Shown: positions 19,894-38,370 of the stretch, piece by piece
Layout of the letters: each line of letters begins with the position of its first letter
Numbering within the stretch: position 1 is the first letter of the stretch
DNA from: an uncultured Eubacteriales bacterium
GTDB lineage: Bacteria > Bacillota > Clostridia > Oscillospirales > Ruminococcaceae
Reading direction: 5' to 3'
Length of the DNA: 41,292 bases
NCBI GenBank assembly: GCA_900319075.1
Contig: ONMZ01000021.1
Coordinates: 1-41,292 of the forward strand
Made by a program: the position numbers and the translations under genes
Notes under the pieces: model-generated
Seen by the model: the letters and a program-made list of their open reading frames with translations, nothing else
Database searches by the model: none
What the model was told of the DNA's origin: nothing

Positions 19894-19903
19894 CCACTTA
19901 GAG

Positions 19904-19948: not shown

Positions 19949-19964
19949 GTCCGAAATTGTCGAT

Positions 19965-19985
19965 GGGACTTGTTTGGGACTTATT
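19965..19985 (+). repeat. Integrase arm-type repeat, left end of island 2
   Basis: GGGACTTGTTT followed directly by GGGACTTATT. A near-identical 21-base block with two mismatches lies at 40974-40994, just inside the right end of the same island, in the same orientation. Confidence 0.55.
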
Positions 19986-20021
19986 TTTCAGACACTACAA
20001 GTCCCGTCCAAAAGTTGACCT

Positions 20022-21272: not shown

Positions 21273-21305
21273 AAAACATCTCTCCTTTGCGATGTGTAGA
21301 TTTTA

Positions 21306-21319
21306 TGGCGTGTTCCGTT
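21306..21319. repeat. 14-bp inverted motif, left copy
   Basis: TGGCGTGTTCCGTT upstream of integrase 2; its exact reverse complement AACGGAACACGCCA is at 40952-40965 next to the right arm repeat. It may be a site for the integrase or excisionase. Confidence 0.45.
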
Positions 21320-21390
21320 ATATTCAGTTTAGCACTTTAAAGCCAGAATGTCAAGTGCCTATATATTATTGATTGAAACACGCCATTTTT

Positions 21391-22830
21391 CTATCGTCTT
21401 TTGTTCGTTTTATTTTTGTTTTTCTGTATTTCTAATTCTCTGTGCTGTTTTTCTTCCTCTACGAGTTTTGAAATATAGTCCCCACCGGAAATATCTTTGT
21501 AGGTATCACGAATATCGGAATAAAGCGCAAGCCTATTCTTTTTCTTATAGATAGAATTCTTGAGCTCGGCTATCTCCGATAGCAATTTATCATTCCGCTC
21601 ACGCAAAGAAATAATATCATCCGGCGAGGATATATTATTCAGCTCGGCACAAGATTTATATGTTTCAAGCAACAATTTATCCTCGTCACTCAAAGCATTC
21701 CTATCCGACAGGACGAAATACTTCTCGCAGTAATCTATAACCTGTTGCACTTGTTCCTGCTCTAACAGCTTACCCGATAGCTTCTTCTGCAAGGCTATAT
21801 ACTCCGCCGACAGCCTATCAATTCTACCCTCCAAATCACCAATCGAAGCTATACTATCCCGATTGATAACCGTTAGCTGTGCTGATAGCCTGTAAATATC
21901 AAGATCGTTTTTCGGTGAGTACGGAGCATTTGTATCACGCCTACGCTTCACCTTTTTATTTTGCTCGGCAAGTATTCTCACCTCGCCAATGACGGAAATA
22001 TATGCACGCTCAATCTCCGTATTGCTGAAATGTGCGATTGAATTTCCACCGCCCACCATACGCCAGAGAATGCGAGCGTTCAGCGATTCCTCGGTGTAGT
22101 CCTCGCCTAAAGTCCACAAGCTGACGGAGCGCTGCTGCCCGGGGGCTTTGATGTAGATATGCTTATCGCGCTTGACGGTAAAGCCCTTACTTTCAAGCTG
22201 CGATAACAGGTCATCGACAGAATACACCGCAGGTATCAAGCTGTCTATCGCTTGTCTGATATGCTCTTTCCACGAGGTACCCTTTTTCTTATGCTGCCAT
22301 TCAAAGTAGCTGATTGACCTGCCCTTGTTCTCGAAATTGAGAGCAGGTGTTACACCAAATGCTCTGCATACTCCGTTAGCAGTTTCACGAGCTTGCCGCA
22401 AAGTTGTTTGGTTCTCATAAAACCTCTTGCCCGAAAGTGAGTATGAATTGATGAGGATATGGTTGTGAATGTGGTCAGCGTTGATATGCGTTGCAATGAC
22501 CGCCTGTGCATCATCGCCAAACATCTTGCGGACAAAAGCCTTGCCTATCTTCAATGCGAGTTCCGGAGAAACGTTCTCCTTGTCTGCAAAACTCATGATG
22601 AGGTGAATTGCCTTGACCGAGGATTTCCCACTTTTCGACTTGGGGGCATCGTAGCTGAGTTTGGAGAATTGCTCATAAACTGCTTTCATCTGTGTGTAGG
22701 CAAACTCCGGCTCGGTCATGCAGTTTATGGAGGCAGTCAAAATGCGCTCATCGGTCTTGTCGGGGTTGAGTATGTAGGTCAGAGTTTGCTTGACGTTATT
22801 GTGGACAGCCAGTTGCTTACAGTACGGCAA
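21391..22830 (-). CDS. MobA/VirD2-type relaxase (MOBP)
   Basis: A 479-residue mobilization nuclease. The N-terminal domain carries the metal-binding motif HINADHIHNHILINS (about residues 112-126) and a candidate catalytic Tyr in its first 25 residues. The C-terminal third is Lys/Glu-rich and coiled-coil, ending in KNKTNKRR. It would nick the element at oriT and lead the strand into the recipient, using a helper's conjugation channel because no type IV secretion genes are present. The start is TTG at 22830; the frame is closed upstream. It overlaps the end of mobC by 52 bases, so the two are probably translationally coupled. Confidence 0.9.
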   Translation of the reverse strand: MPYCKQLAVHNNVKQTLTYILNPDKTDERILTASINCMTEPEFAYTQMKAVYEQFSKLSYDAPKSKSGKSSVKAIHLIMSFADKENVSPELALKIGKAFVRKMFGDDAQAVIATHINADHIHNHILINSYSLSGKRFYENQTTLRQARETANGVCRAFGVTPALNFENKGRSISYFEWQHKKKGTSWKEHIRQAIDSLIPAVYSVDDLLSQLESKGFTVKRDKHIYIKAPGQQRSVSLWTLGEDYTEESLNARILWRMVGGGNSIAHFSNTEIERAYISVIGEVRILAEQNKKVKRRRDTNAPYSPKNDLDIYRLSAQLTVINRDSIASIGDLEGRIDRLSAEYIALQKKLSGKLLEQEQVQQVIDYCEKYFVLSDRNALSDEDKLLLETYKSCAELNNISSPDDIISLRERNDKLLSEIAELKNSIYKKKNRLALYSDIRDTYKDISGGDYISKLVEEEKQHRELEIQKNKNKTNKRR

Positions 22831-24647: not shown

Positions 24648-24725
24648 TTACAAAATCAGCCATATTGTGATATAATCTAATCATAAAGCAACGGCGCTGA
24701 TTGTATTCAGTGCCGTTTTCTTTTT
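24648..24725 (+). promoter_or_regulatory. Promoter plus hexaloop/terminator leader 1
   Basis: TTACAA (24648-24653), 17-base spacer, TATAAT (24671-24676). The leader has AGC-[AACGGC]-GCT (24687-24698), a hexaloop with A at position 1 and G at position 4, supported by an outer AATC/GATT pairing. It overlaps the terminator ACGGCGCTGA/TCAGTGCCGT (24691-24716) followed by TTTCTTTTT. The two structures exclude each other. Confidence 0.65.
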
Positions 24726-24741
24726 GATTGAGGTGATACCT

Positions 24742-26025
24742 ATGAAGATACCCCCAAAACTCCCGCCTATCGGAGCAAGGATAATAAAATCATCTGTTGC
24801 GGTGGCGTTATGTATGGTGATCTATTTCTTACGAACGCTTCTTCCTATCGGGAACGGCATACCGTTCTACAGCGCTCTTGCAGCCCTTTGGTGCTTACAG
24901 CCTTATTCCAATTCTACTAAAAATAATGCGGGACAGCGTTCAATAGGTACCTTCATAGGGGCGGCTTACGGACTTGCGTTTATTGTACTGCTCCGCTTTA
25001 TTGGTCTGACAGAGCCTGCTCTTGTTTATCTTCTTGCATCTGCAATGATAATTCCTGTGATCTATCTTACAGTTGTTTTAAATAAAAGAAATGCCTCTTT
25101 CTTTTCCTGCGTGGTTTTCCTGAGCATAGCACTGACTCATTCATTCGATGATGACCCTTATCTGTTTGTTTTCAACCGTGTTCTCGATACGTTTATCGGC
25201 ATTGGTGTAGGTCTTGCGGTCAATAACTTTCACTTGCCGGTAAAGCATGACAGCGATACGCTTTATGTCAGCGGCATCGATTCCGTTCTGATACCCGACG
25301 ATCATTCGGCTAATGCTTTCAACAAGGTCGAGCTTAACAGAATGATAGAATCTAGAGTAAGGTTCACACTTTCAACGGTACGCACTCCTGCTGAGGTGAG
25401 GTCACTTATGAACGGTGTGGCTCTCGAATATCCGCTGATCGTAATGGACGGTGCTGCACTGTATGATCTTAAAAAGAAAGAATATCTGGAAATAGAATAC
25501 CTTTCACCGCAGGTATGCGATACTGCCGAAACCATTATAGCCGAGAACTGTATGCATTCATTTGTGAACACCATATATGATTCCACCCTGCTGATCTTTT
25601 ACGGTGAGCTTAAAAACCCTGCCGAGCTTGACCTTTTTGAAACTCACCGGCACTCGTCTTACAGAAACTATATCCATGATTCCTTCAGGCGCTTTGACGA
25701 GCATGAAAAGGTGTTGTATCTAACCGTGCTGGACGAGAATGAAAAGATCGACGCTCTTAAAATCAGGCTTTGTGACGAGCTTGGCGAAAATGCACGGATA
25801 ACAGTGACGGCCTCGGAATATGAGGGGTATAGCTATTTGAAAGTATTCTCACCACTTGCTTCAAAAGAGCGCATGCTTGTTAAGCTTAAAGCACATTCCG
25901 GCTGTGAAAAGGTGGTAACGCTTGGAAGCATCGAGGGAAAATACGATGTATATATCGGTGACGGCGGTGGAAATGCAACTGTCAAGAAGCTGAAAAAACT
26001 GTACAGACACGACATTTACCACTGA
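24742..26025 (+). CDS. ArAE-type membrane protein fused to a HAD-like domain
   Basis: A 427-residue protein. The first about 160 residues have four to six membrane helices of the aromatic acid exporter (ArAE/FUSC-like) type. From about residue 178 a cytoplasmic domain resembles Cof-type HAD phosphatases: a segment VRFTLSTVRTPAEVRSL, then YPLIVMDGAALYD, and near the end HSGCEKVVTLGS and VYIGDGGGNATVKKLK, which match later HAD motifs. Where the nucleophile motif DxDGT should be, the sequence reads GIDSVLIPDD, so the first aspartate pair is lost and the domain may bind but not hydrolyse a phosphoester. ATG at 24742 has GAGGTGA 5 bases before it. Confidence 0.75.
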   Translation: MKIPPKLPPIGARIIKSSVAVALCMVIYFLRTLLPIGNGIPFYSALAALWCLQPYSNSTKNNAGQRSIGTFIGAAYGLAFIVLLRFIGLTEPALVYLLASAMIIPVIYLTVVLNKRNASFFSCVVFLSIALTHSFDDDPYLFVFNRVLDTFIGIGVGLAVNNFHLPVKHDSDTLYVSGIDSVLIPDDHSANAFNKVELNRMIESRVRFTLSTVRTPAEVRSLMNGVALEYPLIVMDGAALYDLKKKEYLEIEYLSPQVCDTAETIIAENCMHSFVNTIYDSTLLIFYGELKNPAELDLFETHRHSSYRNYIHDSFRRFDEHEKVLYLTVLDENEKIDALKIRLCDELGENARITVTASEYEGYSYLKVFSPLASKERMLVKLKAHSGCEKVVTLGSIEGKYDVYIGDGGGNATVKKLKKLYRHDIYH

Positions 26026-26082
26026 ATTTATGACATCTTATTTTCTTAACAAAATAATAATGAAAGAATAAATTTGCTTTGT

Positions 26083-26147
26083 TATAATGAATGCAAATAA
26101 GGATAGGCAAAGGCGCTTCTCTGTATGGAGGAGCGCCCTTGGTTTTA
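26083..26147 (+). promoter_or_regulatory. Promoter plus hexaloop/terminator leader 2
   Basis: TATAAT (26083-26088) without a good -35 box. The leader has AGGC-[AAAGGC]-GCTT (26105-26118), again a hexaloop with A1 and G4. It overlaps a terminator, GGCGCTTCTC with GAGGAGCGCC (26112-26137), followed by a short GGTTTT run. The citrate synthase ATG is 20 bases further. Confidence 0.6.
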
Positions 26148-26167
26148 CAGCGAAAGAGGTTTTAACT

Positions 26168-27534
26168 ATGAGCAGCTTTAAGAAAACAATGTATGCAGCC
26201 TTCAGAGAAAATAACACTATCTCTCCTGCTTACTTTGATAAATACAGCGTAAAGCGAGGACTGCGTAACCCTGACGGCACTGGTGTTATGGCGGGTGTTA
26301 CAAATATCTGCAATGTTCACGGATATGTTGTTGATGACGGTGAGAAAAAGCCCGCCGAGGGCAAGCTGATTTTCAGAGGATACAGTATCCGTGATCTGAT
26401 CGGCAAGGCCGAAGCGGAAGATCGCTTCGGATTTGAGGAGATCGTATATCTTTTGCTGACGGGTAAACTGCCGACTGCGGACGAGCTTGCAGAGTTTACA
26501 GCTCTGCTTTCGGATAACCGTGCTTTGCCCGAAAACTTTTTTGAGGATATGATACTGAAAGCTCCCTCACGGGATATTATGAATAAAATGGCAAGGTCAA
26601 CCCTTGCACTTTACTCCTATGACAGCGATCCCGAATCCCTGTCACCAGAGCATGAGATAGACACGGCTGTATCGCTGATAGCAAAAATGCCCGTCATCAT
26701 GATATGCGCCTATGAGACTAAAATGCGGTATTTCAGCGAAAACTCCATGATAATGCACCCTTTGATAAAGGGGCAGACAACTGCTGAAAACATATTATCT
26801 ACCCTGCGTCCCGACAGAAAATTCACACGAGATGAAGCAAAGCTCCTTGACCTTATGCTTATGCTTCACGCTGAACACGGAGGGGGCAACAACTCGACTT
26901 TTTCCTGCCGTGTACTCACTTCATCGGGAACAGACCCTTATTCGACCTATGCGGCTGCTATCGGCTCGCTCAAAGGTGCAAGGCATGGCGGAGCAAACCG
27001 CAAGGTCACGGAGATGCACGAATACATCAAGGCTAATGTCTCCGATTGGGAAAATGAAGATGAACTCAGCGAATATCTGCGCAGGATACTCAAAAAGGAA
27101 GCAGGAGACGGCAGCGGACTGATCTACGGAATGGGTCATGCCGTGTATACGCTTTCCGATCCCAGAGCCGTGATACTGAAAGAATATGCAGGAAAAATGG
27201 CTGAGGGTACGGAATTTGAAAAGGAGTATCATCTGCTTGAAGCAATAGAACGGCTGACACCTCTCATATTTGAGGAGGTAAAGCATTCGGCATATTTGAG
27301 GAGGTAAAGCATTCGGACAAGGCTATGTGTGCAAACATAGATATGTACAGCGGATTTGTTTACAGAATGCTCGGTATCCCCGAAGAATTATTTACACCCC
27401 TGTTTGCTGTATCGAGAATGGCTGGCTGGTGCGCTCACAGATTTGAGGAGATGGGCAGCGGCAAACGCATTATCCGTCCCGCATACAAATCTGTCTCACA
27501 TGAAAAGAAGTATGTAAATATTAAGGATAGATAA
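26168..27534 (+). pseudogene. Citrate synthase, frameshifted by a 26-bp duplication
   Basis: Condenses acetyl-CoA and oxaloacetate to citrate when intact. The first frame (379 residues to the stop at 27305-27307) has the catalytic histidines in LKGARHGGAN (His273) and GMGHAVY (His324). The rest of the enzyme, with the catalytic Asp in NIDMYSG and the LFAVSRMAGWCAH block, continues in another frame to 27534. A 26-base segment is exactly duplicated in tandem at 27265-27316; removing one copy restores one 446-residue frame of normal length. The ATG at 26168 has AGAGG upstream; an in-frame ATG at 26087 lies on the promoter. As read, the product lacks its last active-site residue. Confidence 0.88.
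27265..27316 (+). repeat. 26-bp perfect tandem duplication
   Basis: Two exact copies of a 26-base unit beginning CATATTTGAGG and ending AGCATTCGG, at 27265-27290 and 27291-27316. Since 26 is not a multiple of 3 it shifts the citrate synthase frame. It may be a reversible slippage mutation or a sequence/assembly artefact. Confidence 0.95.
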
Positions 27535-27557
27535 GCCTTGTGTTTTGGAGGAATACC

Positions 27558-29468
27558 ATGAAAGACGGTTTTATTAAAATTGCCTGTGCAACACCTGAAC
27601 TGAAAGTTGCTGACTGTGCATTCAATGCGGACAGGATCATAGAGCTTATAAAAGAAGCGCATACAAGCGGTGTAAAGATAGTTTGTTTTCCGGAACTGTC
27701 TGTCACAGGCTATACCTGCGGAGACTTGTTTTTACAGGATTCTCTTCTGAATGAAGCTAAGCATGAGCTGGTACGTATCGTAAAAGTAACAGAAAGGCTG
27801 GATATCGTGTCAGTCATCGGGCTGCCGCTTGATGTCAGAGGTAAACTGTATAACTGCGCAGTCGTAATAAACAGAGGAAATATCATCGGTGCAGCAGCCA
27901 AAAAGAATATCCCGAATTACAGCGAGTTTTATGAGGTCAGGCACTTTACGGCAGCCGATGAAAGGCTCTGCACTGATGTTCAGCTTCCTGACGGGTATTA
28001 TGTACATCTTGAAGATACGGTATTTGTCTGCAAAGAGCTGCCGGAGCTGACATTCGGAATCGAGATATGCGAGGATATGTGGGTATGCTCACCTCCCGCT
28101 GAAAAGCTTGCGGCATCAGGGGCAGTTGTAATATTCAATCTTTCAGCAAGTGATGAGGTGATCGGTAAGGCGGAATACCGCCGTACTCTGATCAAGGCAC
28201 ATTCTGGGTCGATGGCCTGTGCATACGCTTATGCCGACTGCGGCATCGGAGAATCAACACAGGACATGGTATTTGCCGGACATAATATAATTGCAGAAAA
28301 CGGCTCTGTGCTTGCTGAATCCAACGCATTTTCCAGAGGACTGACAATAGCTGATATTGACATTAAAAAGCTGCTTCATGAACGAAGGAGAATGAATACC
28401 TTTGCTTCTGCTCCAAGTGTTCACACTGCATATTTTTCTCTCAGGATAACTGAAACGGTGCTTGACAGATCATTTTCTCAAACGCCGTTTGTTCCGGCTG
28501 ATAAAAATGCACTCGACAGTAGGTGTGAAGAAATTCTGGGTATGCAGGCAGTAGGCTTGATGACACGGCTGCGGCATATCGGTTGTAAAACGGCGGTGCT
28601 TGGTCTTTCAGGCGGACTTGATTCCACACTTGCTCTTATAGTAACAGCCCATGCTTATGATATGCTCGGGCTTGACAGAAACGGCATTAAGGCAGTCACA
28701 ATGCCCTGCTTTGGCACAACTGACAGAACCTACCTGAATGCCTGTTCTCTGGCAAAGGCATACGGAGCAGAACTCTTAGAGATAAATATTTGCAGCAGTG
28801 TGATGCAGCATTTTTCTGATATCGGTCAGTCACCGGACAATTATGATGTTACCTTTGAAAATTCACAGGCAAGAGAGCGCACTCAGGTCTTAATGGACAA
28901 AGCGAATCAGCTTGGCAGCATCGTGATCGGAACAGGAGACCTTTCAGAGCTTGCACTTGGCTGGGCGACCTATAACGGCGATCATATGTCGATGTATGCT
29001 GTAAATTCATCTATTCCGAAAACGCTTGTAAAATGGCTGGTAGGTTACGAGGCACAGATATCACAGGGAGAACTGAAAAAGGTGCTGTTTGATATTCTTG
29101 ACACACCGGTCAGCCCTGAGCTTCTTCCGCCGGAGGGTAACGGTTCTATATCACAGAAAACAGAGGATATTGTCGGGCCCTATGAGCTTCATGACTTTTT
29201 CATGTACTATATGCTTAGATACGGCTTTTCACCATCAAAGATATTCCGTATCGCCTGCATTTCATTCACTGATAAGTATTCCGATGTGGAGATACTTAAA
29301 TGGCTGAAAACCTTCTATCGACGCTTTTTCTCACAACAGTTTAAGCGCTCTTGTCTGCCTGACGGTCCGAAGGTGGGAACAGTTACCCTATCTCCCCGTA
29401 GTGACTGGCGTATGCCCAGTGACGCTTCGGCAAATCTGTGGCTTCGGGAAATAGAAAAGTTACCGTAG
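27558..29468 (+). CDS. nadE: Glutamine-dependent NAD+ synthetase
   Basis: A 636-residue two-domain enzyme that amidates nicotinic acid adenine dinucleotide to NAD+. The N-terminal nitrilase-like glutaminase has the Glu-Lys-Cys triad: Glu46 in CFPELSVTGY, Lys in AAKKNIPNY (about 120) and Cys in GIEICEDMW (about 175). The C-terminal synthetase has the pyrophosphatase loop LGLSGGLDSTLAL near residue 355 and the GTGDLSELALGW segment. ATG at 27558 has GGAGGA 6 bases upstream. It follows citrate synthase by 23 bases and shares its transcript from leader 2. The length matches the long, glutamine-using class. Confidence 0.94.
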   Translation: MKDGFIKIACATPELKVADCAFNADRIIELIKEAHTSGVKIVCFPELSVTGYTCGDLFLQDSLLNEAKHELVRIVKVTERLDIVSVIGLPLDVRGKLYNCAVVINRGNIIGAAAKKNIPNYSEFYEVRHFTAADERLCTDVQLPDGYYVHLEDTVFVCKELPELTFGIEICEDMWVCSPPAEKLAASGAVVIFNLSASDEVIGKAEYRRTLIKAHSGSMACAYAYADCGIGESTQDMVFAGHNIIAENGSVLAESNAFSRGLTIADIDIKKLLHERRRMNTFASAPSVHTAYFSLRITETVLDRSFSQTPFVPADKNALDSRCEEILGMQAVGLMTRLRHIGCKTAVLGLSGGLDSTLALIVTAHAYDMLGLDRNGIKAVTMPCFGTTDRTYLNACSLAKAYGAELLEINICSSVMQHFSDIGQSPDNYDVTFENSQARERTQVLMDKANQLGSIVIGTGDLSELALGWATYNGDHMSMYAVNSSIPKTLVKWLVGYEAQISQGELKKVLFDILDTPVSPELLPPEGNGSISQKTEDIVGPYELHDFFMYYMLRYGFSPSKIFRIACISFTDKYSDVEILKWLKTFYRRFFSQQFKRSCLPDGPKVGTVTLSPRSDWRMPSDASANLWLREIEKLP

Positions 29469-29494
29469 TTTTCCGACATTTTGTCATAAAAATA

Positions 29495-29582
29495 TTGACA
29501 TACAAAAATTTTAGTGGTATAATATGGGTATAAATTCAGAAGCAACGGCGCTTCTCCTTCAATGGAGAGGCGCCGCTTTTTT
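29495..29582 (+). promoter_or_regulatory. Promoter plus hexaloop/terminator leader 3
   Basis: A perfect promoter: TTGACA (29495-29500), 17 bases, TATAAT (29518-29523). The leader has a 6-bp stem AGAAGC/GCTTCT around loop AACGGC (29538-29555). It overlaps the left arm of a terminator, CGGCGC...CTCC with GGAG...GCGCCG (29546-29575), followed by CTTTTTT. This is the clearest of the five leaders. Confidence 0.8.
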
Positions 29583-29613
29583 ATGAAAATATTTATGATT
29601 GGAGTGATATAAA

Positions 29614-30914
29614 ATGACACAGCAGATTCAGTTCACAAAGGCAGTGGGCAATGCAAATGAGATCAACGAGCTTCTCAGAAGATATGGTGTTAAGTTTGGT
29701 ATATACAAAAACGGCGTGTTCAATGAAGACCCTATACCCCGAGTCATTTCGGCTGAGGATTTTCAGAGCATGGAAAAGGGACTTGTTCAGCGTGTAAACG
29801 CCCTGAATGAGTTCCTTTTTGATATTTACCACGATAAAAAGATAGTGCGCGACGGCATAATACCGGAGGACTTTATCTACATATCCTCGGGTTATCTGGC
29901 CGAGTGCGAGGGTATCACCCCTAAGAACAAGGTCTACAGCCACATCTCGGGCATTGACCTCGTGCAGGCAAAGGACGGCGAGTGGTATATCTTAGAGGAC
30001 AATCTGCGCATTCCATCGGGGGCTTCATATCCGCTTATCGCAAGGGACTTGACCCGTATCGCTGCACCGCAGGCATTCGAGGAAAACCCGATCATAGATA
30101 ACCGTGGATATGCTGAATTGCTCAAAGAAACGATGGAACACGTCAATTGCGGCGGTGCAAGGGCGATACTTACCCCCGGACGATACAATGCGGCATATTT
30201 CGAGCATTCCTAAACGATGAGCTGTTCGTGGAGGACAATATTCTCTATCACCGTACCTATTCGGGCGGCAAGACCAGGATAGGCGTGCTTTACCGCCGAA
30301 TCTCCGACGAGTACCTTGACCCGCTGACCTTCCTGCCGCAGTCGCTTATCGGCATACCAAATTTAATGGAGGCCTACCGCAGCGGGAATGTGGGTATCAT
30401 CAACGCCCCGGGCAACGGCGTGGCAGACGACAAGGGTATCTATTATTTCGTGCCGAAGATGATAAAATACTATCTCGGTGAAGAACCGATACTCAAAAAT
30501 GCACCGACCTATCTGCCGTTCTATGAGGAGGACATGAAGTATGTTATGGAGCATCTTGATACGCTTGTCATCAAGGACGTTGCCGAAGCCGGCGGCTATG
30601 GCGTGGTGTTCGGCAGCGACCTTACAAAGGAGAAGTTAGAGGAGTTCCGCAAAACGATCATCGCAGAGCCGAGGCGATTCATCGCGCAGGAGGTCATTGA
30701 TTTCCTTGATATGCCGATTGTTGAGGGCAATGATGGTATGAGCGAAGCTCATACGGTAATGCGCAAGGCAGACCTGAGAGCATTTGTGCTTTCGGGAGAA
30801 ACAACAAGGGTATGGGCTTCGGGGCTGACCCGCTTTTCACGCAACCCGGATTCATTCGTAGTCAATTCATCACAAGGTGGAGGGTTTAAGGACACATGGG
30901 TACTATCTCGTTAG
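29614..30914 (+). pseudogene. Circularly permuted ATP-grasp protein, interrupted
   Basis: Belongs to the type 2 circularly permuted ATP-grasp family (COG2308), predicted amide- or peptide-bond-forming enzymes. The first frame (to 30213) has IPRVISAEDF, VQRVNALNEFL, GIDLVQAKDGEWYILEDNLRIPSG and TPGRYNAAYFEHS. The second frame continues LFVEDNILYHRTYSGG, YRRISDEYLDPLTF, NAPGNGVADDKGIYYFVP, DVAEAGGYGVVFG and VVNSSQGGGFKDTWVL. Between FEHS and the next block, family members have about 12-15 residues (of the FLARQMG type) that are missing here, so a small deletion near 30205-30215 removed them and shifted the frame. Start ATG at 29614 has GGAGTGA upstream. As read, the protein is split. Confidence 0.85.
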
Positions 30915-31597
30915 AACACAGCGACCGGCTTTACTGGCTGGGCCGCTATACCGAAAGATTTTTTACGACAATAAAGGCTCTGGGCAGGCAGTTTGACAAA
31001 ATGATCGGCACGGCACACAGCTACACCGATTATCTCGACTGCTTCGGACTGCCCGATACTTATATGGATAATAAGGATTTTATCCGCAGCCTGCTTTTTG
31101 ACGAAAACAATGCTCACTCTGCGGCATACAGTCTGGAAAGAGCCTACGACAACGGCATTGTCCTGCGGGAGGAGATCTCTACCGACTCGCTGTCCTTCCT
31201 GCAAATGGCGAAGGACACCCTCACCAAAGCAGGACAGAGCGATAATGTCAGGCTGGCGCTCCTGCCGCTGGAGGATATCATCTACAGCTTTTGGGGGAGC
31301 ATCAATGAGCATATTTACGATGATGAGATCAGAAATATCATCTACATCGGCAAGACCCTGGAAAGGCTGGATCTGTATATCAGAATGAAATATCCGTTTG
31401 GTATCGTTGAGAAGGAATTTATCCGGTTGATGAAGAACCTGAACCGTGTGCCGAAGGGTACGCCTTATCGCTACAGCACGAAATATCTCTCCGACCTGGT
31501 GGAGATACTGGGCACCGAGGAGGACTATAAGCGCGAGTCGGACAAGGCTATTGACAGTCTCGGGCATTTGTTTGAAACAACGGAGGTGTTTGCATGA
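30896..31597 (+). CDS. Alpha-E domain protein (DUF403/COG2307)
   Basis: A 233-residue, almost wholly helical protein opening with GTISLEHSDRLYWLGRYTERFF, the hallmark of the alpha-E family. It always accompanies the circularly permuted ATP-grasp, and is thought to act with it in making an unknown peptide-like product. Its ATG overlaps the end of the ATP-grasp gene by 19 bases, and its stop overlaps the start of the transglutaminase-like gene, so the three are one translational unit. The gene itself looks intact. Confidence 0.88.
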   Translation: MGTISLEHSDRLYWLGRYTERFFTTIKALGRQFDKMIGTAHSYTDYLDCFGLPDTYMDNKDFIRSLLFDENNAHSAAYSLERAYDNGIVLREEISTDSLSFLQMAKDTLTKAGQSDNVRLALLPLEDIIYSFWGSINEHIYDDEIRNIIYIGKTLERLDLYIRMKYPFGIVEKEFIRLMKNLNRVPKGTPYRYSTKYLSDLVEILGTEEDYKRESDKAIDSLGHLFETTEVFA

Positions 31598-32364
31598 AGC
31601 GCGTGAATTTCTATTACTCGACCAAGCTGACCTTTGACGATTATGTTCACGGTCACAGCTTTGCGCTGCGGGTTATCCCGCCGGAGACCGAAACACAGCA
31701 TATGCTGTCGTGCAGTCTGAACATCTCGCCTTATGTCTCCACACAGCAGACGGTTGACTCCTTCGGGAACAACGTCACGGCGGGCTATATGCGGGACGAT
31801 CACCGCTTCCTTGATTTCGAGATAAAGGGCGCAGCCGAAGTTGACCACTCAAAGCACCGCACCGATTACATGCCCTGCTATCTCTATCAGTCGCAGTACA
31901 CCAAGCCCGACGAAGCGCTTAAAAGCTTCTATGAAAGTATCAAGGGCAAATGCACCGGCACGGCGGCTGACAAGGCGGAGTATATCAGCAATATACTTTC
32001 GGAGACTATCGAGTATGCAAAGGACGTTACCGACATCTCCACAACTGCGGCGCAGGCGTTTGCGCTTAAAAAGGGCGTGTGTCAGGATTTTTCGCACATA
32101 CTCATATCGCTGCTGCGAATGGACGGCATCGCTGCAAGGTACATCGCAGGGCTGGCCTTCTGTGACGGGGAGACTCATTCGTGGGTAGAGTACTGGACGG
32201 GCGACCACTGGGAGGGCATCGACCCTGCCAACAACTGCCCCGTCAGCGACGATTATATCGTTATCTCTCATGGCAGAGATTTCCGCGACTGCGCCATTGA
32301 CAGGGGCGTGATGTTTGGCAGCTATACAAAGCAGCTCCAGCTGGTGCGCTCGGTGCTGACATAA
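31594..32364 (+). CDS. Transglutaminase-like cysteine protein
   Basis: A 256-residue protein with an N-terminal beta-rich domain and a transglutaminase-like core. The triad is visible: Cys in KKGVCQDFSHI (about residue 162), His in THSWVEYW (about 195) and Asp in GIDPANN (about 210). Family members act as thiol proteases or amide-bond transferases. It overlaps the alpha-E gene by 4 bases (ATGA). The ATP-grasp, alpha-E and transglutaminase trio is a known conserved gene set with an unknown product; the intact triad suggests an active enzyme. Confidence 0.9.
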   Translation: MKRVNFYYSTKLTFDDYVHGHSFALRVIPPETETQHMLSCSLNISPYVSTQQTVDSFGNNVTAGYMRDDHRFLDFEIKGAAEVDHSKHRTDYMPCYLYQSQYTKPDEALKSFYESIKGKCTGTAADKAEYISNILSETIEYAKDVTDISTTAAQAFALKKGVCQDFSHILISLLRMDGIAARYIAGLAFCDGETHSWVEYWTGDHWEGIDPANNCPVSDDYIVISHGRDFRDCAIDRGVMFGSYTKQLQLVRSVLT

Positions 32365-32377
32365 GGGGGTGGGACCA

Positions 32378-33316
32378 ATGATAGAACGTGTGGCAAGCAT
32401 TCCGCTTGCGGTGAACGAAAATCTGAATATACAAAAGCAGCGAATACAGAACGGCAGCAGCAAGACCCGTCTAAGCCTTGTGACAGGCACTCACGGCGAT
32501 GAGCTGGAGGGGCAGTATCTTGCCTATATGGTCGGCAGTTATATTGATGAGCATATCGAACAGCTTGACGGCATTCTGGACATTTACCCCGCCCTAAACC
32601 CTATGGGTATCGACAGCATAACTCGCGGAATACCCATGTTTGACCTCGACATGAACAGAGTTTTTCCCGGCACTAAGCGGGGCACTATGGTTGAAGTCAT
32701 ATGCTCGTCTATCGTTGATGATCTCTCGGGCTCGGACGTTTGCATTGATGTTCACTCCAGTAATATTTTTCTCAAAGAAATACCGCAGATTCGCATTAGC
32801 GTGCCGACGGCAGAAACGCTCGTCCCTTACGCCAAAAAGCTGAATGTGGATTTTGTGTGGATACACGACGCCGCAACGGTGCTTGAATCCACCCTCGCTC
32901 ACACCCTCAACAGCAGAGGGACAAAAACGCTCGTTGTGGAAATGGGCGTTGGTATGCGGATCACAAAAGAGTATTGCAAGCAGCTGTTTGACGGCGTGCT
33001 GAACCTGATGAAGGAGCTTGGAATGTGGAAGGGCGAGGCCGCGCCTGTGCGGGAGCCTGTTATCTCTCAGGGGCGCGAGGTTGGCTTTGTCAACTCCGAT
33101 GCAGCAGGGATCTTTGTGCCGTGTGCTAACTTTGGCGATCATGTCAAGCAGGGCGACCATATCGGAGATGTGGTCGATCCGCTGACCTCGAAGGTGGTAG
33201 AGCGGGTGCAGGCGGTCTGCGACGGAATGATATTTACGCTGCGTGAATACCCCGTGGTCTATGGCGGCTCGCTGCTGGCGAGAATTTTGCAGCCTGCGGG
33301 AGGTGAGCTGATATGA
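32378..33316 (+). CDS. AstE/AspA-family M14 deacylase, first copy
   Basis: A 312-residue zinc hydrolase of the succinylglutamate desuccinylase/aspartoacylase family, which removes acyl groups from amino acids. Zinc ligands are complete: His39 and Glu42 in GTHGDELEG and His126 in CIDVHSS; the substrate-binding DMNRVFPG motif is at about 91-98. The C-terminal about 75 residues form a small beta domain (AAGIFVPCANFGDHVKQG). ATG at 32378 is chosen over GTG at 32369 because the G-rich site AAGGGGGTG precedes it. It follows the transglutaminase-like gene by 13 bases. Confidence 0.88.
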   Translation: MIERVASIPLAVNENLNIQKQRIQNGSSKTRLSLVTGTHGDELEGQYLAYMVGSYIDEHIEQLDGILDIYPALNPMGIDSITRGIPMFDLDMNRVFPGTKRGTMVEVICSSIVDDLSGSDVCIDVHSSNIFLKEIPQIRISVPTAETLVPYAKKLNVDFVWIHDAATVLESTLAHTLNSRGTKTLVVEMGVGMRITKEYCKQLFDGVLNLMKELGMWKGEAAPVREPVISQGREVGFVNSDAAGIFVPCANFGDHVKQGDHIGDVVDPLTSKVVERVQAVCDGMIFTLREYPVVYGGSLLARILQPAGGELI

Positions 33317-34236
33317 AAAAGAAGATATTATTTTCACTCAAATCGCCCTACCGCGAGCAGCTGGATATTATAGGCTTCCGCTTTGGTCACGGTAAAAAGT
33401 CCCTTGCGATTGTCGGGGCAATGCGAGGAAACGAGGTCCAGCAGATGTATGTCTGCTCCCGGATGGTTCAGACGCTTAAAAAGCTTGAAAGCGAGGGCAG
33501 GCTCGCCGAGGACACCGAGATACTTGTAGTGCCCTGCATAAATTACTATTCCATGAACATCGGCAAGCGCTTCTGGGCTATGGATAATACCGACATCAAC
33601 AGAATGTTTCCGGGCTATAATTTGGGCGAGACGACCCAGCGTATCGCTGACGGGGTTTTCAGCAAATTGCAGGGCTATGAATACGGCATACAGCTTGCAA
33701 GCTTCTATCAGCCGGGCATCTTTCTGCCCCATGTCAAAATGATGGACACAGGCTTCACCGACCCCGATATAATGAAGGATTTCGGTCTGGAGTTCGGCAT
33801 TATCCGCAAGCCCCGGCCCTACGACACCACCACCCTCAACTACAACTGGCAGGTGTGGGAGACCAAGGCCTTCTCGGTCTATGCCAATGCCACCGACGAG
33901 ATAGATGTCAAGGCGGCTGATGAGGCAGTAAATGCCATACTTCGATTTATGGACAATCGGGGCATAGCAGCAGTCAAAACACCGCCCGGGTATATCACCG
34001 AGATCATCGACGAGGGCAAGACTAAACAGATACAGTCAGAGCACGCGGGCATTTTTTTCAGGACTGCCGAGATCGGCAAAACGGTGGAGCACGGCGAGGT
34101 GCTGGGCAGGATATACGACCCGCTGGACGGCGAGCTCATCGCCGAGGTGAGAACGCCTGTATCGGGAACGGTGTATTTTGCCTACAACAGCCCGCTGATA
34201 AACGCAAAGACGGTGTGCTTTAAGATAATAAAATAA
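33313..34236 (+). CDS. AstE/AspA-family M14 paralogue lacking zinc ligands
   Basis: A 307-residue paralogue of the preceding gene, overlapping it by 4 bases. The fold markers are kept (NTDINRMFPGYNLGETTQRIAD, and the C-terminal AGIFFRTAEIGKTVEHG domain), but the first zinc motif reads GAMRGNEVQQ, with Arg38 in place of His, and the DxHS motif is replaced by GIQLASFY. It is therefore probably not a normal zinc hydrolase and may be a regulatory partner of the first copy. Confidence 0.85.
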   Translation: MKKKILFSLKSPYREQLDIIGFRFGHGKKSLAIVGAMRGNEVQQMYVCSRMVQTLKKLESEGRLAEDTEILVVPCINYYSMNIGKRFWAMDNTDINRMFPGYNLGETTQRIADGVFSKLQGYEYGIQLASFYQPGIFLPHVKMMDTGFTDPDIMKDFGLEFGIIRKPRPYDTTTLNYNWQVWETKAFSVYANATDEIDVKAADEAVNAILRFMDNRGIAAVKTPPGYITEIIDEGKTKQIQSEHAGIFFRTAEIGKTVEHGEVLGRIYDPLDGELIAEVRTPVSGTVYFAYNSPLINAKTVCFKIIK

Positions 34237-34242
34237 AAGCGC

Positions 34243-34287
34243 GGAGATGCTGCTATGGTCATCAAAGCAACAGCTCCGTTTTATTGG
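34243..34287 (+). terminator. Terminator of the ATP-grasp operon
   Basis: CGGAG near 34244 pairs with CTCCG near 34275, with TGCTG/CAaCA-type pairing inside, followed by TTTTATT. The long loop makes it a moderate terminator. Confidence 0.45.
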
Positions 34288-34291
34288 GTCG

Positions 34292-34990
34292 TCAATTGCA
34301 ATTTCGCACAAACTCCTCAAATATCAATATACTGTTTTCATCACGCTGATATGAGAGCTCCGGATGCCATTGTATTGCCCACAGGAATTTCTGATCGGGT
34401 GCATATACGGCTTCGATCAGTCCGTCCGGGGCAAAAGCCATGCTGACAAGCTGCGGTGACAGCTTACGCACGCCTTGATGGTGATAGCTGTTGACGGATA
34501 TATTTTTTATTTTTAAGAGAGAATAAAGCGGCGAGTTGGTCTTAATCTCAACATCGTGAGAGGGAATATCATAAGGCGGCTTCTGACAATGTATCACATT
34601 GCTCGGAAGCTCGGTCGGAATATCTTGCCAGAGTGTACCGCCCAGAGCGGCATTGATAAACTGTATCCCGCGGCAGATGCCGAGGATGGACTTGTCTCTT
34701 TTTATAGCCTCATCAAGAATGAGCATTTCCATTTTGTCACGTTCTGGACTGCACTCGCCGCACAATGGGCTTTTTTCTGAATGATATAAAGCCGGGTCAA
34801 CGTCCTGACCGCCTGTGAACAGAAAACCGTCGCACACTTCCATAACAGTCTGAAGCTCACTCCTGCTCTCTATGACAGGCAGCATTACCGGCAATGCTCC
34901 GACAGTCTGCAATCCTTTTAAGTAGCCCGGTATCATCCAATAGCTGTTTCTTCCGTAATCTATAAGCGGGATAACTCCGATTGTCTTCAT
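34292..34990 (-). CDS. C26 family gamma-glutamyl hydrolase / glutamine amidotransferase-like protein
   Basis: A 232-residue class I glutamine amidotransferase-fold protein of the PuuD type. The nucleophile Cys is in ILGICRGIQF (about residue 100), the His-Glu pair in AIQWHPELS (about 212-216), and GGQDVDPALY near residue 58 is typical of gamma-glutamyl-GABA hydrolases. It would cleave gamma-glutamyl bonds of a small amide. It is the only minus-strand gene of the cargo, converging on the ATP-grasp operon, and has its own promoter and hexaloop/terminator leader (35002-35092). GGAGG lies 7 bases before the ATG. Confidence 0.9.
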   Translation of the reverse strand: MKTIGVIPLIDYGRNSYWMIPGYLKGLQTVGALPVMLPVIESRSELQTVMEVCDGFLFTGGQDVDPALYHSEKSPLCGECSPERDKMEMLILDEAIKRDKSILGICRGIQFINAALGGTLWQDIPTELPSNVIHCQKPPYDIPSHDVEIKTNSPLYSLLKIKNISVNSYHHQGVRKLSPQLVSMAFAPDGLIEAVYAPDQKFLWAIQWHPELSYQRDENSILIFEEFVRNCN

Positions 34991-35001
34991 AACAAACCTC
35001 C

Positions 35002-35092
35002 AAAAAAGGTGCCGCAGGAATGACCCACAGCACCTTTGCTGATATGTTATTTACTTCGTTTTTATTCTATCATCTTTGGCGGAGAAAGTCAA
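35002..35092 (-). promoter_or_regulatory. Promoter plus hexaloop/terminator leader 4
   Basis: On the minus strand TTGACT (plus 35087-35092), 17 bases, TAGAAT (plus 35064-35069). The leader has CAGC-[AAAGGT]-GCTG (plus 35028-35041), a hexaloop with A1 and G4. It overlaps the terminator AAAGGTGC/GCACCTTT (plus 35005-35037), followed by T on the minus strand (plus 35002-35007 is all A) and directly by the ribosome site. Confidence 0.72.
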
Positions 35093-35223
35093 TATATCAA
35101 TTGGACTGTTTAAAATATTATCGGATAATTTACAGTAATTTCTTAAATCGTTGAAAGTGACTTGACCTCCTGCAAAAAGCCGACACTGTTTTTGGGTAAA
35201 AAATAGAATCCGTTTCAAAAGGC

Positions 35224-35370
35224 TTGACTTTGCAGGTATAATGTGATAATATGAAGCTGTCGAAGGACAAGGCACGGACAACGGGGTTCAGCAGGCTTCG
35301 CTGTCCGTTATTATTTAACTGAAATGTGGGCATTGGCGTTCATTTTACGAAAGCTGATGCCCACATTTTT
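35224..35370 (+). promoter_or_regulatory. Promoter plus hexaloop and two-terminator leader 5
   Basis: TTGACT (35224-35229), 17 bases, TAATAT (35247-35252). The leader has GGAC-[AACGGG]-GTTC (35276-35289), a hexaloop with A1 and G4, overlapping terminator 1, ACGGACA/TGTCCGT (35274-35308), followed by TATTATTT. A second, strong terminator, TGTGGGCAT/ATGCCCACA (35325-35365), runs into TTTTT just before the aminotransferase ribosome site. Confidence 0.72.
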
Positions 35371-35391: not shown

Positions 35392-36606
35392 ATGAAGCTG
35401 AAGGATACCGGACTTACCGCTGCTGAGCTGAAGGAAAAGGCTTCAAGGTACATCATTGAGACATACGAGCGCTTTGATTTTGTTGCCGACAGTGCAAAGG
35501 GCATATATGTCTATGATGATAACGGAACGCCTTATCTGGATTTTTATGCAGGAATTGCAGTCAATTCGGTCGGCAACTGCAATGAGCATGTTGTAAAGGC
35601 TGTGCAGCAGCAGGCGGAAACAGCAATGCAGCTTTTTAACTACCCATACTCTGTTCCGCAGACGCTGCTTGCCGAAAAGGTCTGCACGACGATAGGCATG
35701 GATAAGATATTCTTTCAGAACAGCGGCACCGAGGCTAACGAAGCTATGATAAAAATGGCGAGAAAATATGGCGTCGAGAAGTACGGCGCAAACCGCTTCA
35801 ATATCGTGACTGCCGCCAATTCCTTCCACGGCAGGACCTTCGGCTCAATGTCCGCAACCGGTCAGCCTGACAATGCCTGTCAGATAGGCTTCGGCGGAAT
35901 GACCCCGGGCTTCACTTATGCCCCGTTTAACGACCTCGAAGCTTTTAAAGCAGCCTGTACGAAGGATACTATCGCTATCATGATAGAGCCTGTGCAGGGC
36001 GAGGGCGGCGTGAACCCCGCAACGCAGGAGTTCATGATGGGTCTCAGAAAATTCTGCGACGAAAAAGAGATGCTTTTGCTGCTGGACGAGGTGCAGACAG
36101 GCTGGTGCAGAACAGGCAAATATATGTCGTTTATGAATTACGGTATAAAGCCCGACATTGTTTCTATGGCAAAGGCGCTGGGCGGCGGAATGCCGATAGG
36201 CGCTATCTGCGCGACGGAAGAAGTGGCAAAAGCGTTTACTTCCGGCTCACACGGCACCACCTTTGGCGGGCACCCGGTTTGCTGTGCCGCAGCACTGGCA
36301 GCCATCGAGGAGATGGAGGAAAAGCACCTTGCAGACAACGCCGCAAGGGTCGGCGCATACTTTATGGAGAAGCTGAAGGGTCTGCCACACATTAAAGAGG
36401 TGCGCGGCCAGGGTCTGCTGGTGGGTGTCGAGTTCGACGGAGTGAATGCAGTTGAGGTCAAGCATAAGTGCTTTGACAGAAAGCTGCTCATCACGGCAAT
36501 AGGTGAGAGCGTCATCAGAATGGTACCTCCGCTTATCATCACCGAAGCAGACTGCGACAAGGCCGTTGAGATCATCAAAGACGCGGTTGAAGAAGCCGCC
36601 GTATAA
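35392..36606 (+). CDS. Class III PLP-dependent aminotransferase
   Basis: A 404-residue omega- or acetylornithine-type aminotransferase. Seen: the substrate-side DFYAGIAVNSVGN, the PLP phosphate-binding NSGTEANEAMIKMAR (about 106-120), LLLLDEVQTGWCRTGK with the PLP-binding Asp, and the Schiff-base Lys in SMAKALGGGMPIG (about 262). The substrate cannot be fixed from sequence: acetylornithine, ornithine or GABA are all possible, and the neighbouring gamma-glutamyl hydrolase and transporter suggest an amine or amino acid carrying an omega-amino group. ATG at 35392 has GGAG 9 bases upstream. It is the first gene of a six-gene operon running to 40899. Confidence 0.9.
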   Translation: MKLKDTGLTAAELKEKASRYIIETYERFDFVADSAKGIYVYDDNGTPYLDFYAGIAVNSVGNCNEHVVKAVQQQAETAMQLFNYPYSVPQTLLAEKVCTTIGMDKIFFQNSGTEANEAMIKMARKYGVEKYGANRFNIVTAANSFHGRTFGSMSATGQPDNACQIGFGGMTPGFTYAPFNDLEAFKAACTKDTIAIMIEPVQGEGGVNPATQEFMMGLRKFCDEKEMLLLLDEVQTGWCRTGKYMSFMNYGIKPDIVSMAKALGGGMPIGAICATEEVAKAFTSGSHGTTFGGHPVCCAAALAAIEEMEEKHLADNAARVGAYFMEKLKGLPHIKEVRGQGLLVGVEFDGVNAVEVKHKCFDRKLLITAIGESVIRMVPPLIITEADCDKAVEIIKDAVEEAAV

Positions 36607-36623
36607 GGAAAGGAATGGAAAGT

Positions 36624-37505
36624 ATGAAAATGAAAAGATTTGCAAAAAAATTCGTATGTATGGCATTGACAGCAAGCCTTATGGCAATGCCGCTTTCAGG
36701 CTGCGGTGACTCAGACAGCGGCTCCGGTTCAGACAAGGCTGTTCTGAGAGTCGGAATGGAATGTGCTTACGCTCCCTTTAACTGGACACAGGTTGGTGAC
36801 GATGTGCCCGATGGCAGCAAAGCTGTGCCTATCTACGGCAGCAGTGACTATGCCTACGGTTATGATGTTATGGTAGCACAGAAGCTGGCAGACGAAATGG
36901 GAATGGAGCTTGAGATCCATAAGGTCGAATGGGATTCCATCGGGCTTTCTCTGGACGCAAAGGAATATGACTGCATTATCGCAGGCATGGGCAGAACTGC
37001 CGAACGTGAGGCCTCCTACTCCTTTACTGAGCCCTATTACTACCGCGACAACTGCCTTGTGGTCAAGAAGGGTTCAGACTTCGAGAGCGTTAAGGGGCTT
37101 TCGGATTTCAAGGGAAAGAATGTCACCGTTACCACGCAGCTTGGCACAGGCTGGGTTCCGCTGCTTGAACAGATCCCCGATGCAGTTAAGGGTGCCAATT
37201 ACGAGACCACCGCAGAGGTCTTTATGGCGATCTCCAACGGAGTTGCCGATGTGGCCCTTATCGATCTTCCCACAGCCGAATCAGCACTGCTGACAAACAC
37301 AGATCTGACTATCATCATTCCAGATGCAAGCGACGCCTTTGAGGGCGACAAGGAAATGACCAACGTCTGCATTGCCACCAGAAAGGACGATACAGAGCTC
37401 CGTGATAAGCTCCAGAAGGCAATGGACGACATTGGCTGGAATGACAAGGCAAAGATGGATGAGCTCATGAATGATGCCGTAAAGCTGCAGCCCGCAGCCA
37501 ACTGA
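36624..37505 (+). CDS. Polar amino acid ABC transporter substrate-binding lipoprotein
   Basis: A 293-residue family 3 solute-binding protein. It starts with a basic stretch (KMKRFAKKF) and a hydrophobic signal peptide ending in the lipobox PLSGC at about residues 23-27, so it is anchored to the outer face of the membrane. The mature part has LRVGMECAYAPFNW, the AYGYDVMVAQKLAD helix and ECIIAGMG-like and EPYYYRDNC ligand-region segments. ATG at 36624 has AAAGG 10 bases upstream. It works with the permease and ATPase that follow to import an amino acid or a related compound. Confidence 0.92.
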   Translation: MKMKRFAKKFVCMALTASLMAMPLSGCGDSDSGSGSDKAVLRVGMECAYAPFNWTQVGDDVPDGSKAVPIYGSSDYAYGYDVMVAQKLADEMGMELEIHKVEWDSIGLSLDAKEYDCIIAGMGRTAEREASYSFTEPYYYRDNCLVVKKGSDFESVKGLSDFKGKNVTVTTQLGTGWVPLLEQIPDAVKGANYETTAEVFMAISNGVADVALIDLPTAESALLTNTDLTIIIPDASDAFEGDKEMTNVCIATRKDDTELRDKLQKAMDDIGWNDKAKMDELMNDAVKLQPAAN

Positions 37506-37531
37506 TATATTTCTTCCCCTACCTCCACAAA

Positions 37532-37560
37532 GACTGCCGGCCGGACTGTGCTGCCGGCAG
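37532..37560 (+). other. Intercistronic hairpin
   Basis: CTGCCGG near 37532 pairs with CCGGCAG near 37554 in the 96-base gap between binding protein and permease genes. There is no T-run. Such hairpins often protect the 3' end of the binding-protein message so that it is more abundant than the rest. Confidence 0.45.
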
Positions 37561-37601
37561 CCGCTTTGCGGTGAAAAGAATACTATTAGGCGGTGATCAT
37601 T

Positions 37602-38357
37602 ATGACAGAAACACCCACCAACTCATTTGAATGGGTCTGGTTTATAGCGAAGAAATATTCCGATCTGTTTATCCGGGGCACCTGGCTGACGCTTGTCGTT
37701 GCCGTCACAGGAACTCTTGCCGGGTTTATACTGGGATATATAGTCGGCATCGTTCAGGACACAAGAATAAACAAAGAGGATAATATCATCAAGAGAGGTA
37801 TTGTCAGGCTGTTCAAGATAATAGCCACAGTATATGTTGAGCTTTTCAGAGGCACTCCTATGATCGTGCAGGCGATGATAGTTTTCTACGGATTGAGGCA
37901 GTCAGGACTTGAGATAGATTCCATCTCAGCAGGTATTCTTGTGACCCTGCTCAACACCGGAGCTTATATGGCCGAGACGGTCAGGGCGGGCATCAAGTCT
38001 ATAGATATAGGTCAGCGTGAGGGCGCTCTTGCACTGGGTATGTCTCCGATAGCTGCAATGTTTCATATTATCCTGCCGCAGGCATTCAAGAACATTGTTC
38101 CGGAAATGGCTAACACCTTTCTTACCAATCTGAAAATGACCTCAGTGCTGAATGTCATCGGCGTGCAGGAGCTTTTCTTACAGGCAAAAACGGCAGGCGG
38201 GACATATTATAAATATCTTGAATCCTATCTGGTCATCGCGCTTATTTATCTTGTGCTGTGCTTTGTATTCAGCAGGATATTTGCGCTTATCGAAAAGAAA
38301 ATGGCTGGGCAGAAGGATTACGTTCTCGCTGTAGAGTATATGGAAAACACGCAGTAA
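37602..38357 (+). CDS. Polar amino acid ABC transporter permease
   Basis: A 251-residue permease of the HisMQ family with five predicted membrane helices. It has the [16 protein letters not shown] opening, [19 protein letters not shown], and the ATPase-coupling EAA loop [26 protein letters not shown] at 37602 is chosen over GTG at 37593; GGCGGTGA lies upstream. It lies between the binding protein and the ATPase in one operon. Confidence 0.92.
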
Positions 38358-38370
38358 GGAGGGCGGCAGA

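Follow-up and report, generated by a model that had tools for sequence, protein, structure and literature searches.

We report that all five promoter-proximal leaders (5/5) in a 41,292-nucleotide (nt) stretch of DNA from an uncultured Eubacteriales rumen bacterium of the Ruminococcaceae (contig ONMZ01000021.1 of assembly GCA_900319075.1; hereafter the window) carry a hairpin with a C-G-closed AANGGN hexaloop that shares bases with an intrinsic terminator. A first-pass annotation of the sequence had grouped these leaders into one regulon under an ANTAR-domain antiterminator, and had proposed stem covariation, a covariance-model search and the presence of an ANTAR protein as means to examine the idea. 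Leader anatomy, promoter position, mutual exclusion of the hairpins, covariation, conservation in orthologues, co-occurrence with and adjacency to ANTAR genes, and gene functions were all computed directly, and we are highly confident that the five leaders are part of a larger nitrogen (glutamine) regulon under ANTAR-type transcription antitermination. The leader features and the genes behind them are as follows (window coordinates; promoter boxes from a promoter scan).

24671..24676, plus strand: leader 1, -10 box TATAAT
24687..24698, plus strand: leader 1, hexaloop hairpin AGC-AACGGC-GCT with a 3-base-pair (bp) stem, loop 24690-24695, before the FUSC/HAD protein gene
24690..24717, plus strand: leader 1, intrinsic terminator, mutually exclusive with the hexaloop hairpin, -18.1 kcal/mol
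26083..26088, plus strand: leader 2, -10 box TATAAT
26105..26118, plus strand: leader 2, hexaloop hairpin AGGC-AAAGGC-GCTT, 4 bp (one G-U), loop 26109-26114, before the second citrate synthase gene
26112..26139, plus strand: leader 2, terminator, -19.5 kcal/mol
29495..29500, plus strand: leader 3, -35 box TTGACA
29518..29523, plus strand: leader 3, -10 box TATAAT
29538..29555, plus strand: leader 3, hexaloop hairpin AGAAGC-AACGGC-GCTTCT, 6 bp, loop 29544-29549, before the ATP-grasp/Alpha-E/transglutaminase/AstE set
29546..29577, plus strand: leader 3, terminator, -24.9 kcal/mol
35064..35069, minus strand: leader 4, -10-like box TAGAAT, with TTGACT 17 bases further up
35028..35041, minus strand: leader 4, hexaloop hairpin CAGC-AAAGGT-GCTG, 4 bp, loop 35037-35032, before the peptidase C26 gene
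35006..35036, minus strand: leader 4, terminator, -20.5 kcal/mol
35276..35289, plus strand: leader 5, first hexaloop hairpin GGAC-AACGGG-GTTC, 4 bp (one G-U), loop 35280-35285, conserved in relatives
35280..35309, plus strand: leader 5, first terminator, -9.9 kcal/mol
35326..35343, plus strand: leader 5, second hexaloop hairpin GTGGGC-ATTGGC-GTTCAT, loop 35332-35337
35326..35364, plus strand: leader 5, second terminator-like hairpin with a T tract (from the fold only; automatic terminator test negative)
24724..26025, plus strand: gene for a FUSC_2 and HAD-hydrolase protein (open reading frame; ATG near 24742)
26168..27307, plus strand: citrate synthase gene, second paralogue
27540-29468, plus strand: NAD synthase/CN-hydrolase gene, after citrate synthase
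29614..34236, plus strand: CP-ATP-grasp (two open reading frames), Alpha-E, transglutaminase and two AstE/AspA-like genes
34292..34990, minus strand: peptidase C26 / class I glutamine amidotransferase-like gene
35395..36606, plus strand: class III aminotransferase gene
36615-39111, plus strand: polar amino acid ABC transporter, after the aminotransferase

All five AANGGN loops are closed by a C-G pair and have A at position 1 and G at position 4. The hairpins lie where the first-pass annotation had placed them, with the loops it gave and with each 3' arm forming part of the left arm of the terminator; the stem of leader 1 has to be corrected to 3 bp only. The statement that each leader has one clear hexaloop holds for leaders 1-4, while in leader 5 a second one (ATTGGC) had been missed; 52 nt separate its two hexaloops, and each is accompanied by a terminator-like hairpin of its own. 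A scan of the 70 nt before each of leaders 1-5 detected no further A..G.. hairpin of at least 4 bp, and none of the five has the published arrangement of two hexaloop hairpins with a linker of 2-25 nt. The terminator hairpins (-9.9 to -24.9 kcal/mol) are each followed by a T-rich tract, whereas a hexaloop hairpin in isolation has little stability (-1.0 to -6.5 kcal/mol) and the folded leaders adopt the terminator, which is what one would expect of an antiterminator that depends on a protein to hold it. Counting C-AANGGN-G sites on both strands, with stems of at least 3 bp, at most one G-U pair and an overlapping terminator, gave five in the window compared with a mean of 0.1 (maximum 1) in 60 dinucleotide shuffles; CAANGGNG strings number 41 in total in the window.

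The genome (2.26 Mb, 86.65% complete) does encode ANTAR proteins: two exceed the family cut-off, both on contig C35. One, a 198-amino-acid REC-ANTAR protein (ANTAR domain PF03861, 56.0 bits; cut-off 27.3), is encoded by the last gene of the run glutamine amidotransferase (GATase) - glutamate synthase (GOGAT) - ferredoxin - oxidoreductase - GXGXG - glutamine synthetase - GNAT - ANTAR. This GOGAT-glnA operon has a leader, TATAAT-ACTTGCAAATGAGC-AAAGGC-GTTCAT followed by a terminator, of the same design as those in the window; the leader of an AraC/REC regulator gene shares this layout, and that of glnN in the same genome carries two widely separated hexaloops. When aligned with EutV, the receiver domain shows Asn at the site of the phosphoacceptor Asp and Ser-Ser at the site of the acidic pair; at the phosphoacceptor position the receivers of 12 relatives have Asn (seven), Asp (three), Cys (one) or Gly (one). 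Since a phosphoacceptor Asp is absent from this receiver, phosphorylation would be an unlikely switch in this lineage. The other protein is a bare ANTAR domain of 65 amino acids (C35:27355-27510; L002:1480-1677, minus strand), encoded near a glutamate dehydrogenase gene, which could possibly be a competitor or modulator of the REC-ANTAR protein; short ANTAR-matching open frames (47-71 amino acids) are likewise present in G001, G018 and G026.

Across 391 genomes of the class, the pattern TATAAT-N(4-24)-RARCAANGGYGYTY was present in 76 and a reversed control pattern in 10, while ANTAR was found in 196. Specifically, 69 of the 76 genomes with the motif have ANTAR compared with 127 of the 315 without it (odds ratio 14.6, P=1.5e-16, the genomes being related and the P value thus not from independent samples). 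For the reversed pattern there is no association (6/10 versus 190/381, P=0.75). In at least 24 genomes, ANTAR positions being partly listed, the motif lies within 10 kb of an ANTAR gene. Seven genomes carry the motif but have no detected ANTAR; in six of them the match is not accompanied by a terminator (L239, L245, L246, L344-L346), and the seventh is G473, described below.

The hexaloop stems covary across 29 leaders of diverse genes and genomes. The three pairs nearest the loop are formed in 29/29, with a C-G closing pair throughout and with the exchanges AU/GC/GU and AU/GU/GC in the next two; the fourth pair, which has nine double changes, forms in 27/29. There are 27 cells with a change on both sides, compared with 8.1 +/- 2.6 in shuffles (0/500 reach 27) and 4 to 17 in slid versions, and in the 45-row training alignment of the covariance model described below the covariation score is above all shuffles. 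These figures lean towards structure, as the rows share ancestry and come partly from a structure-aware search or from pairing filters. Likewise, A at position 1 and G at position 4 are present in 29/29 rows, most of which come from searches requiring A..G loops, and the C:G closing pair was required by the search patterns and by the filters for the GOGAT and orthologue loci. An alignment of whole leaders with MAFFT was dropped because the terminator arms were misaligned. The 5' base of a terminator often looks like AAnGG, and the terminators here are real, which speaks for the AANGGN loop being no more than the ordinary A-tract and G-C base of an intrinsic terminator, with an accidental flanking stem and no antiterminator. 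However, the upstream arm of the stem lies outside the terminator, and termination alone can therefore not require its complementarity, yet its loop-proximal pairs are complete and its fourth pair doubly changed as given above, in rows partly selected for pairing. Moreover, the terminators sit between promoter and gene start, and a plain terminator base gives no reason for the co-occurrence with ANTAR; on these three grounds it was rejected, and we give it next to no probability. The ANTAR antitermination reading put forward in the first pass is, by contrast, strongly supported by these comparisons of sequences, through the covariation, the REC-ANTAR gene of the same genome and the co-occurrence over the 391 genomes.

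A promoter with at most 2/12 mismatches to TTGACA-(16-18)-TATAAT was found within 160 nt in 66/71 leaders, compared with 1/71 when the upstream DNA was reversed, and in 59 of the 66 the -10 box ends at most 26 nt before the loop. If transcription starts, as a general rule, about 7 nt after the -10 box, these 59 leaders have no room for P1, the hairpin that recruits the protein in the published dual-hairpin model; the extra A..G.. hairpins seen upstream in three leaders precede the -10 box. The seven exceptions (more than 26 nt) include one window leader, evidently leader 5 (37 nt). In a sample of 30 loci from the class-wide search, 17 hexaloops overlap the first terminator directly by the automatic test (in L233 and L243 the unit recurs downstream), and in five more the overlap is made through a long hairpin (L237, L238, L249, L258 and L234, whose T tract is poor). 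L253 and L254, both before glnN, are clear dual-hexaloop leaders and L252 is a third by eye; a terminator is missing from four, and L251 seems to be a chance match. That L253 and L254 belong to the same class, that leader 5 and the glnN leader of the same genome each have two hexaloops, and that the best promoter of leader 5 and six others ends more than 26 nt before the loop, would agree with transcription starting at a greater distance upstream and the leaders being dual-hexaloop ANTAR targets of the ordinary kind, with a P1 that escaped notice for this reason. Set against the near-consensus promoters and the missing room for P1 in the great majority, we regard this as very improbable. Judged from sequence, most leaders rather appear to be a new, single-hexaloop variant of the ANTAR target, unlike the published two-hairpin targets; in the open-licence literature searched, with supplementary tables outside the search, no single-hexaloop antitermination leader was found.

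The leaders are conserved in front of orthologous genes (counts include the genome's own locus). One such hairpin is present in 28/30 of the GOGAT loci fetched (none in L062 and L063), and a leader in 6/6 loci of window citrate synthase orthologues. No AANGGN leader was detected in 24 loci of citrate synthase paralogues (three of which, L074, L077 and L088, could not be oriented), L078, L086 and L093 having the chance hairpins AGTGGA, AAGGTC and AGCGCT. The ATP-grasp loci have a leader in 9/11 (none in L104; L096 is truncated) and the C26 loci in 6/11, with one further locus differing in its loop (L109, see below), L113-L115 not convincing and L106 truncated. Upstream of the aminotransferase the hexaloop is present in 20/25 and absent from 5/25 loci examined (80 fetched). 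Six Ruminococcus-type relatives (L264-L268 and L272; L265 is Ruminococcus albus KH2T6) have tandem hexaloops here; unit 1 passes the terminator test in 6/6, and unit 2 passes clearly in L272, marginally in L264 and L265 and fails in three. In G021, one 20-kb stretch has terminator-bearing leaders before citrate synthase, ATP-grasp, C26, FUSC/HAD and PPDK_N genes, including the counterpart of leader 1 (L209; loop AACGGC and a terminator before the FUSC/HAD orthologue). The PPDK_N-domain protein of this stretch has 871 amino acids (L209:15104-17719, after a hexaloop leader); in L185 and L196 leaders precede genes that start similarly, the L185 part being without a Pfam match.

The covariance model was built from 45 leaders, all of other genomes, and had 25 matches at E<=10 in the held-out genome, the terminator leaders among them being judged by eye. 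The leader of the GOGAT operon was recovered with E 7.7e-6. Of the window leaders, 3 (22.6 bits, E 0.0135) and 2 (20.7 bits, E 0.054) were recovered clearly and 4 (15.0 bits, E 3.2) and 1 (13.5 bits, E 9.5) weakly; the second hexaloop of leader 5 scored 15.4 bits (E 2.4), and neither its first hexaloop nor the AraC/REC leader was recovered by the model. When the window was searched alone, the top five matches were leaders 1-4 and the second hexaloop of leader 5. A pattern search of the same genome gave 19 matches compared with 10 for the reversed pattern; three are window leaders and three, on C35, are the GOGAT, glnN and AraC/REC leaders. Among the other pattern matches listed, L005 and L015 passed a loose terminator test and were judged to be coding matches; of the model matches, L136, L127 and L135 were positive in the automatic test (-13.6, -4.7 and -5.6 kcal/mol), but by eye they lack a T tract and are coding sequence. 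In relatives, the automatic test was passed by 18/44 non-training model matches in ANTAR-bearing genomes compared with 1/15 in ANTAR-less ones, among the matches listed, which leave out about ten from ANTAR-bearing genomes (two in L209) and three training leaders of the ANTAR-less G012. By eye the test overlooked L197, L203 and L206 as well as L174 (G065) of the ANTAR-less set, whereas L171, a match of that set that did pass, has the appearance of a plain hairpin; L202, L220 and L223 passed with no clear gene downstream.

Gene function played no part in the searches with the model and the pattern. In relatives, 22 leaders lie behind non-training model matches; the first genes of 17 were scanned and 16 had a Pfam match, namely glutamine synthetase (three), type III glutamine synthetase, class II glutamine amidotransferase of the glutamate-synthase type (three), glutamate dehydrogenase, ammonium transporter, asparagine synthase, PurF-like, PurA, PurC, lyase, DapF and ATP-grasp. 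By our own reading of its N terminus, the lyase appears to be PurB-like. The remaining five of the 22 comprise two genes that begin like scanned ones and three leaders without a clear gene. In the class-wide sample, 17/20 scanned loci encode type III or I glutamine synthetase, glutamate synthase GATase, glutamate dehydrogenase, Amt, PurA, PurC or CTP synthase, and the other three an amino acid permease, an ABC ATPase and a protein without match; the ten left unscanned comprise five whose beginning resembles glnN or glnA and the five loci that have no terminator leader. Function-blind searches thus return mostly nitrogen and glutamine genes, which supports a nitrogen/glutamine regulon. The window genes fit such a regulon (citrate synthase, NAD synthase with its CN-hydrolase domain, C26 hydrolase, and aminotransferase with transporter), and the second citrate synthase may serve 2-oxoglutarate supply. 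The earlier grouping of the window operons is therefore supported, but the regulon extends beyond them to glnA, glnN, GOGAT, gdhA, amt, asnB, purine genes and pyrG.

Known systems share parts of this design, as far as the passages compared describe them. Published definitions of ANTAR targets require two stem-loops (PMC3369931, PMC8164766). EutV/eutP of Enterococcus faecalis (PMC3369931, PMC8934654) likewise has a REC-ANTAR protein, an A1/G4 hexaloop overlapping an intrinsic terminator and several transcripts per protein, but its targets are dual hexaloops with a linker of about 5-12 nt, and P1 is needed in vivo although EutV contacts one hexaloop at a time (PMC8934654), whereas here there is usually one hexaloop per terminator and no P1. 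The EutV receiver moreover has the phosphoacceptor Asp where ours has Asn, and the gene sets differ. NitR of Clostridium saccharobutylicum is an ANTAR protein that induces glutamine synthetase/GOGAT genes by antitermination under nitrogen limitation, and Clo1313_2030-2036 of C. thermocellum is a similar cluster of GOGAT, glutamine synthetase and REC-ANTAR genes (PMC6316151, PMC4676874). Our REC-ANTAR protein and NitR probably belong to the same protein lineage; the passages compared do not describe the RNA target of NitR, while here the target is defined and reaches citrate synthase, NAD synthase, ATP-grasp, purine, pyrimidine and amino acid transport genes. The nitrogen ANTAR regulons predicted in Desulfotomaculum and Pelobacter also comprise several nitrogen operons with terminator-overlapping targets, but the search model demanded two hairpins and so excluded single-hexaloop leaders by construction (PMC3369931). 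The C:G closing pair, A1 and G4 match the consensus for NasR from systematic evolution of ligands by exponential enrichment (PMC7496416). In NasR/nasF and AmiR/amiE, unlike here, there are two hairpins, and the signal for NasR is nitrate. Our ANTAR domain has His at the place of EutV Tyr164, as has the aligned AmiR chain. The signal for AmiR is an amide.

From the sequences we infer that the ANTAR protein binds the hexaloop and that one hexaloop is sufficient, as well as the direction and nature of the signal. Transcripts would begin shortly before the hairpin with the C-G-closed AANGGN loop. In the unbound state the downstream half of this hairpin would pair onward into the intrinsic terminator and transcription would stop. 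The REC-ANTAR protein, product of the last gene of the GOGAT-glnA operon, would become active, presumably under nitrogen limitation, and would then bind the hexaloop, stabilize the hairpin and block terminator formation. Going further, we lean towards single-hexaloop leaders near the transcription start being a prevailing ANTAR target in Clostridia, with a global glutamine/nitrogen regulon. In this lineage the receiver of the driving ANTAR protein, unable to take the usual phosphate, would sense nitrogen through another input, and P1 would be dispensable, the hexaloop being the first RNA to emerge. On balance we favour for such a regulon a scope of glutamine synthetase, GOGAT, glutamate dehydrogenase, uptake of ammonium and amino acids, synthesis of asparagine, purines and CTP, a citrate synthase regulated by nitrogen, and an ATP-grasp peptide set.

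Several observations weigh against ANTAR control through a single hexaloop. In published assays, as far as seen in the passages compared, single hairpins were insufficient or weak for EutV and NasR (PMC8934654, PMC7496416), NasR binding one at about 12 uM (PMC7496416). Further pair types are not in excess, either in the 29-leader set (402/500 shuffles) or in the 45-row training alignment, and pairs with a double change show no excess in the latter. The C26 leader of L109 has the loop GAAGGT, which breaks A1, where L111 has AAAGGT in an otherwise similar leader, a pair that tests the A1 rule in nature. Finally, G473 (89% complete) has a true-looking leader (L347) and no detected ANTAR, and G028 (99%), G012 (93%) and G065 (90%) carry true-looking leaders with no convincing ANTAR at E<=10. 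These four genomes, and an ANTAR receiver devoid of the phosphoacceptor Asp, are also what might be seen if the leaders were attenuators with a hexaloop that serves as the target of a different RNA-binding antiterminator or of a small molecule, the association with ANTAR being indirect. Such a binder does not sit well with the odds ratio of the co-occurrence, with ANTAR genes in or near operons that have the same leader, or with a loop whose recognition letters and closing pair are those known for ANTAR targets. Comparison with Rfam gave no matching family for the leaders of the window or of ten further sources, and a known Rfam RNA was rejected as their identity. We accordingly hold another binder to be improbable.

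If ANTAR control of the single-hexaloop leaders is true, many gut and rumen Clostridia would gain a defined regulator for nitrogen, one connecting the metabolism of carbon (citrate synthase), NAD, nucleotides and glutamine. A natural and widespread one-hexaloop class also directly tests the published dual-hairpin model with its recruiting P1, and the altered receiver reopens the question of which signal these ANTAR proteins sense.

Other features of the window include a split of CP-ATP-grasp into open reading frames 29614-30213 and 30147-30914, the frame having 444-480 amino acids in ten other matched genomes. Close to the end of the citrate synthase gene (27268-27318) there is a tandem repeat with GAGGAGGTAAAGCATTCGG, where a 406-amino-acid open reading frame ends. 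To the left of the regulated genes (13108-22830) lie two tyrosine recombinase genes and a relaxase-like gene. An frnS match in Rfam at 23234, outside the leaders, scored below the cut-off, while an RT-5 RNA (RF03026; 5199-5302, minus strand) exceeds the gathering score with 62.1 bits.

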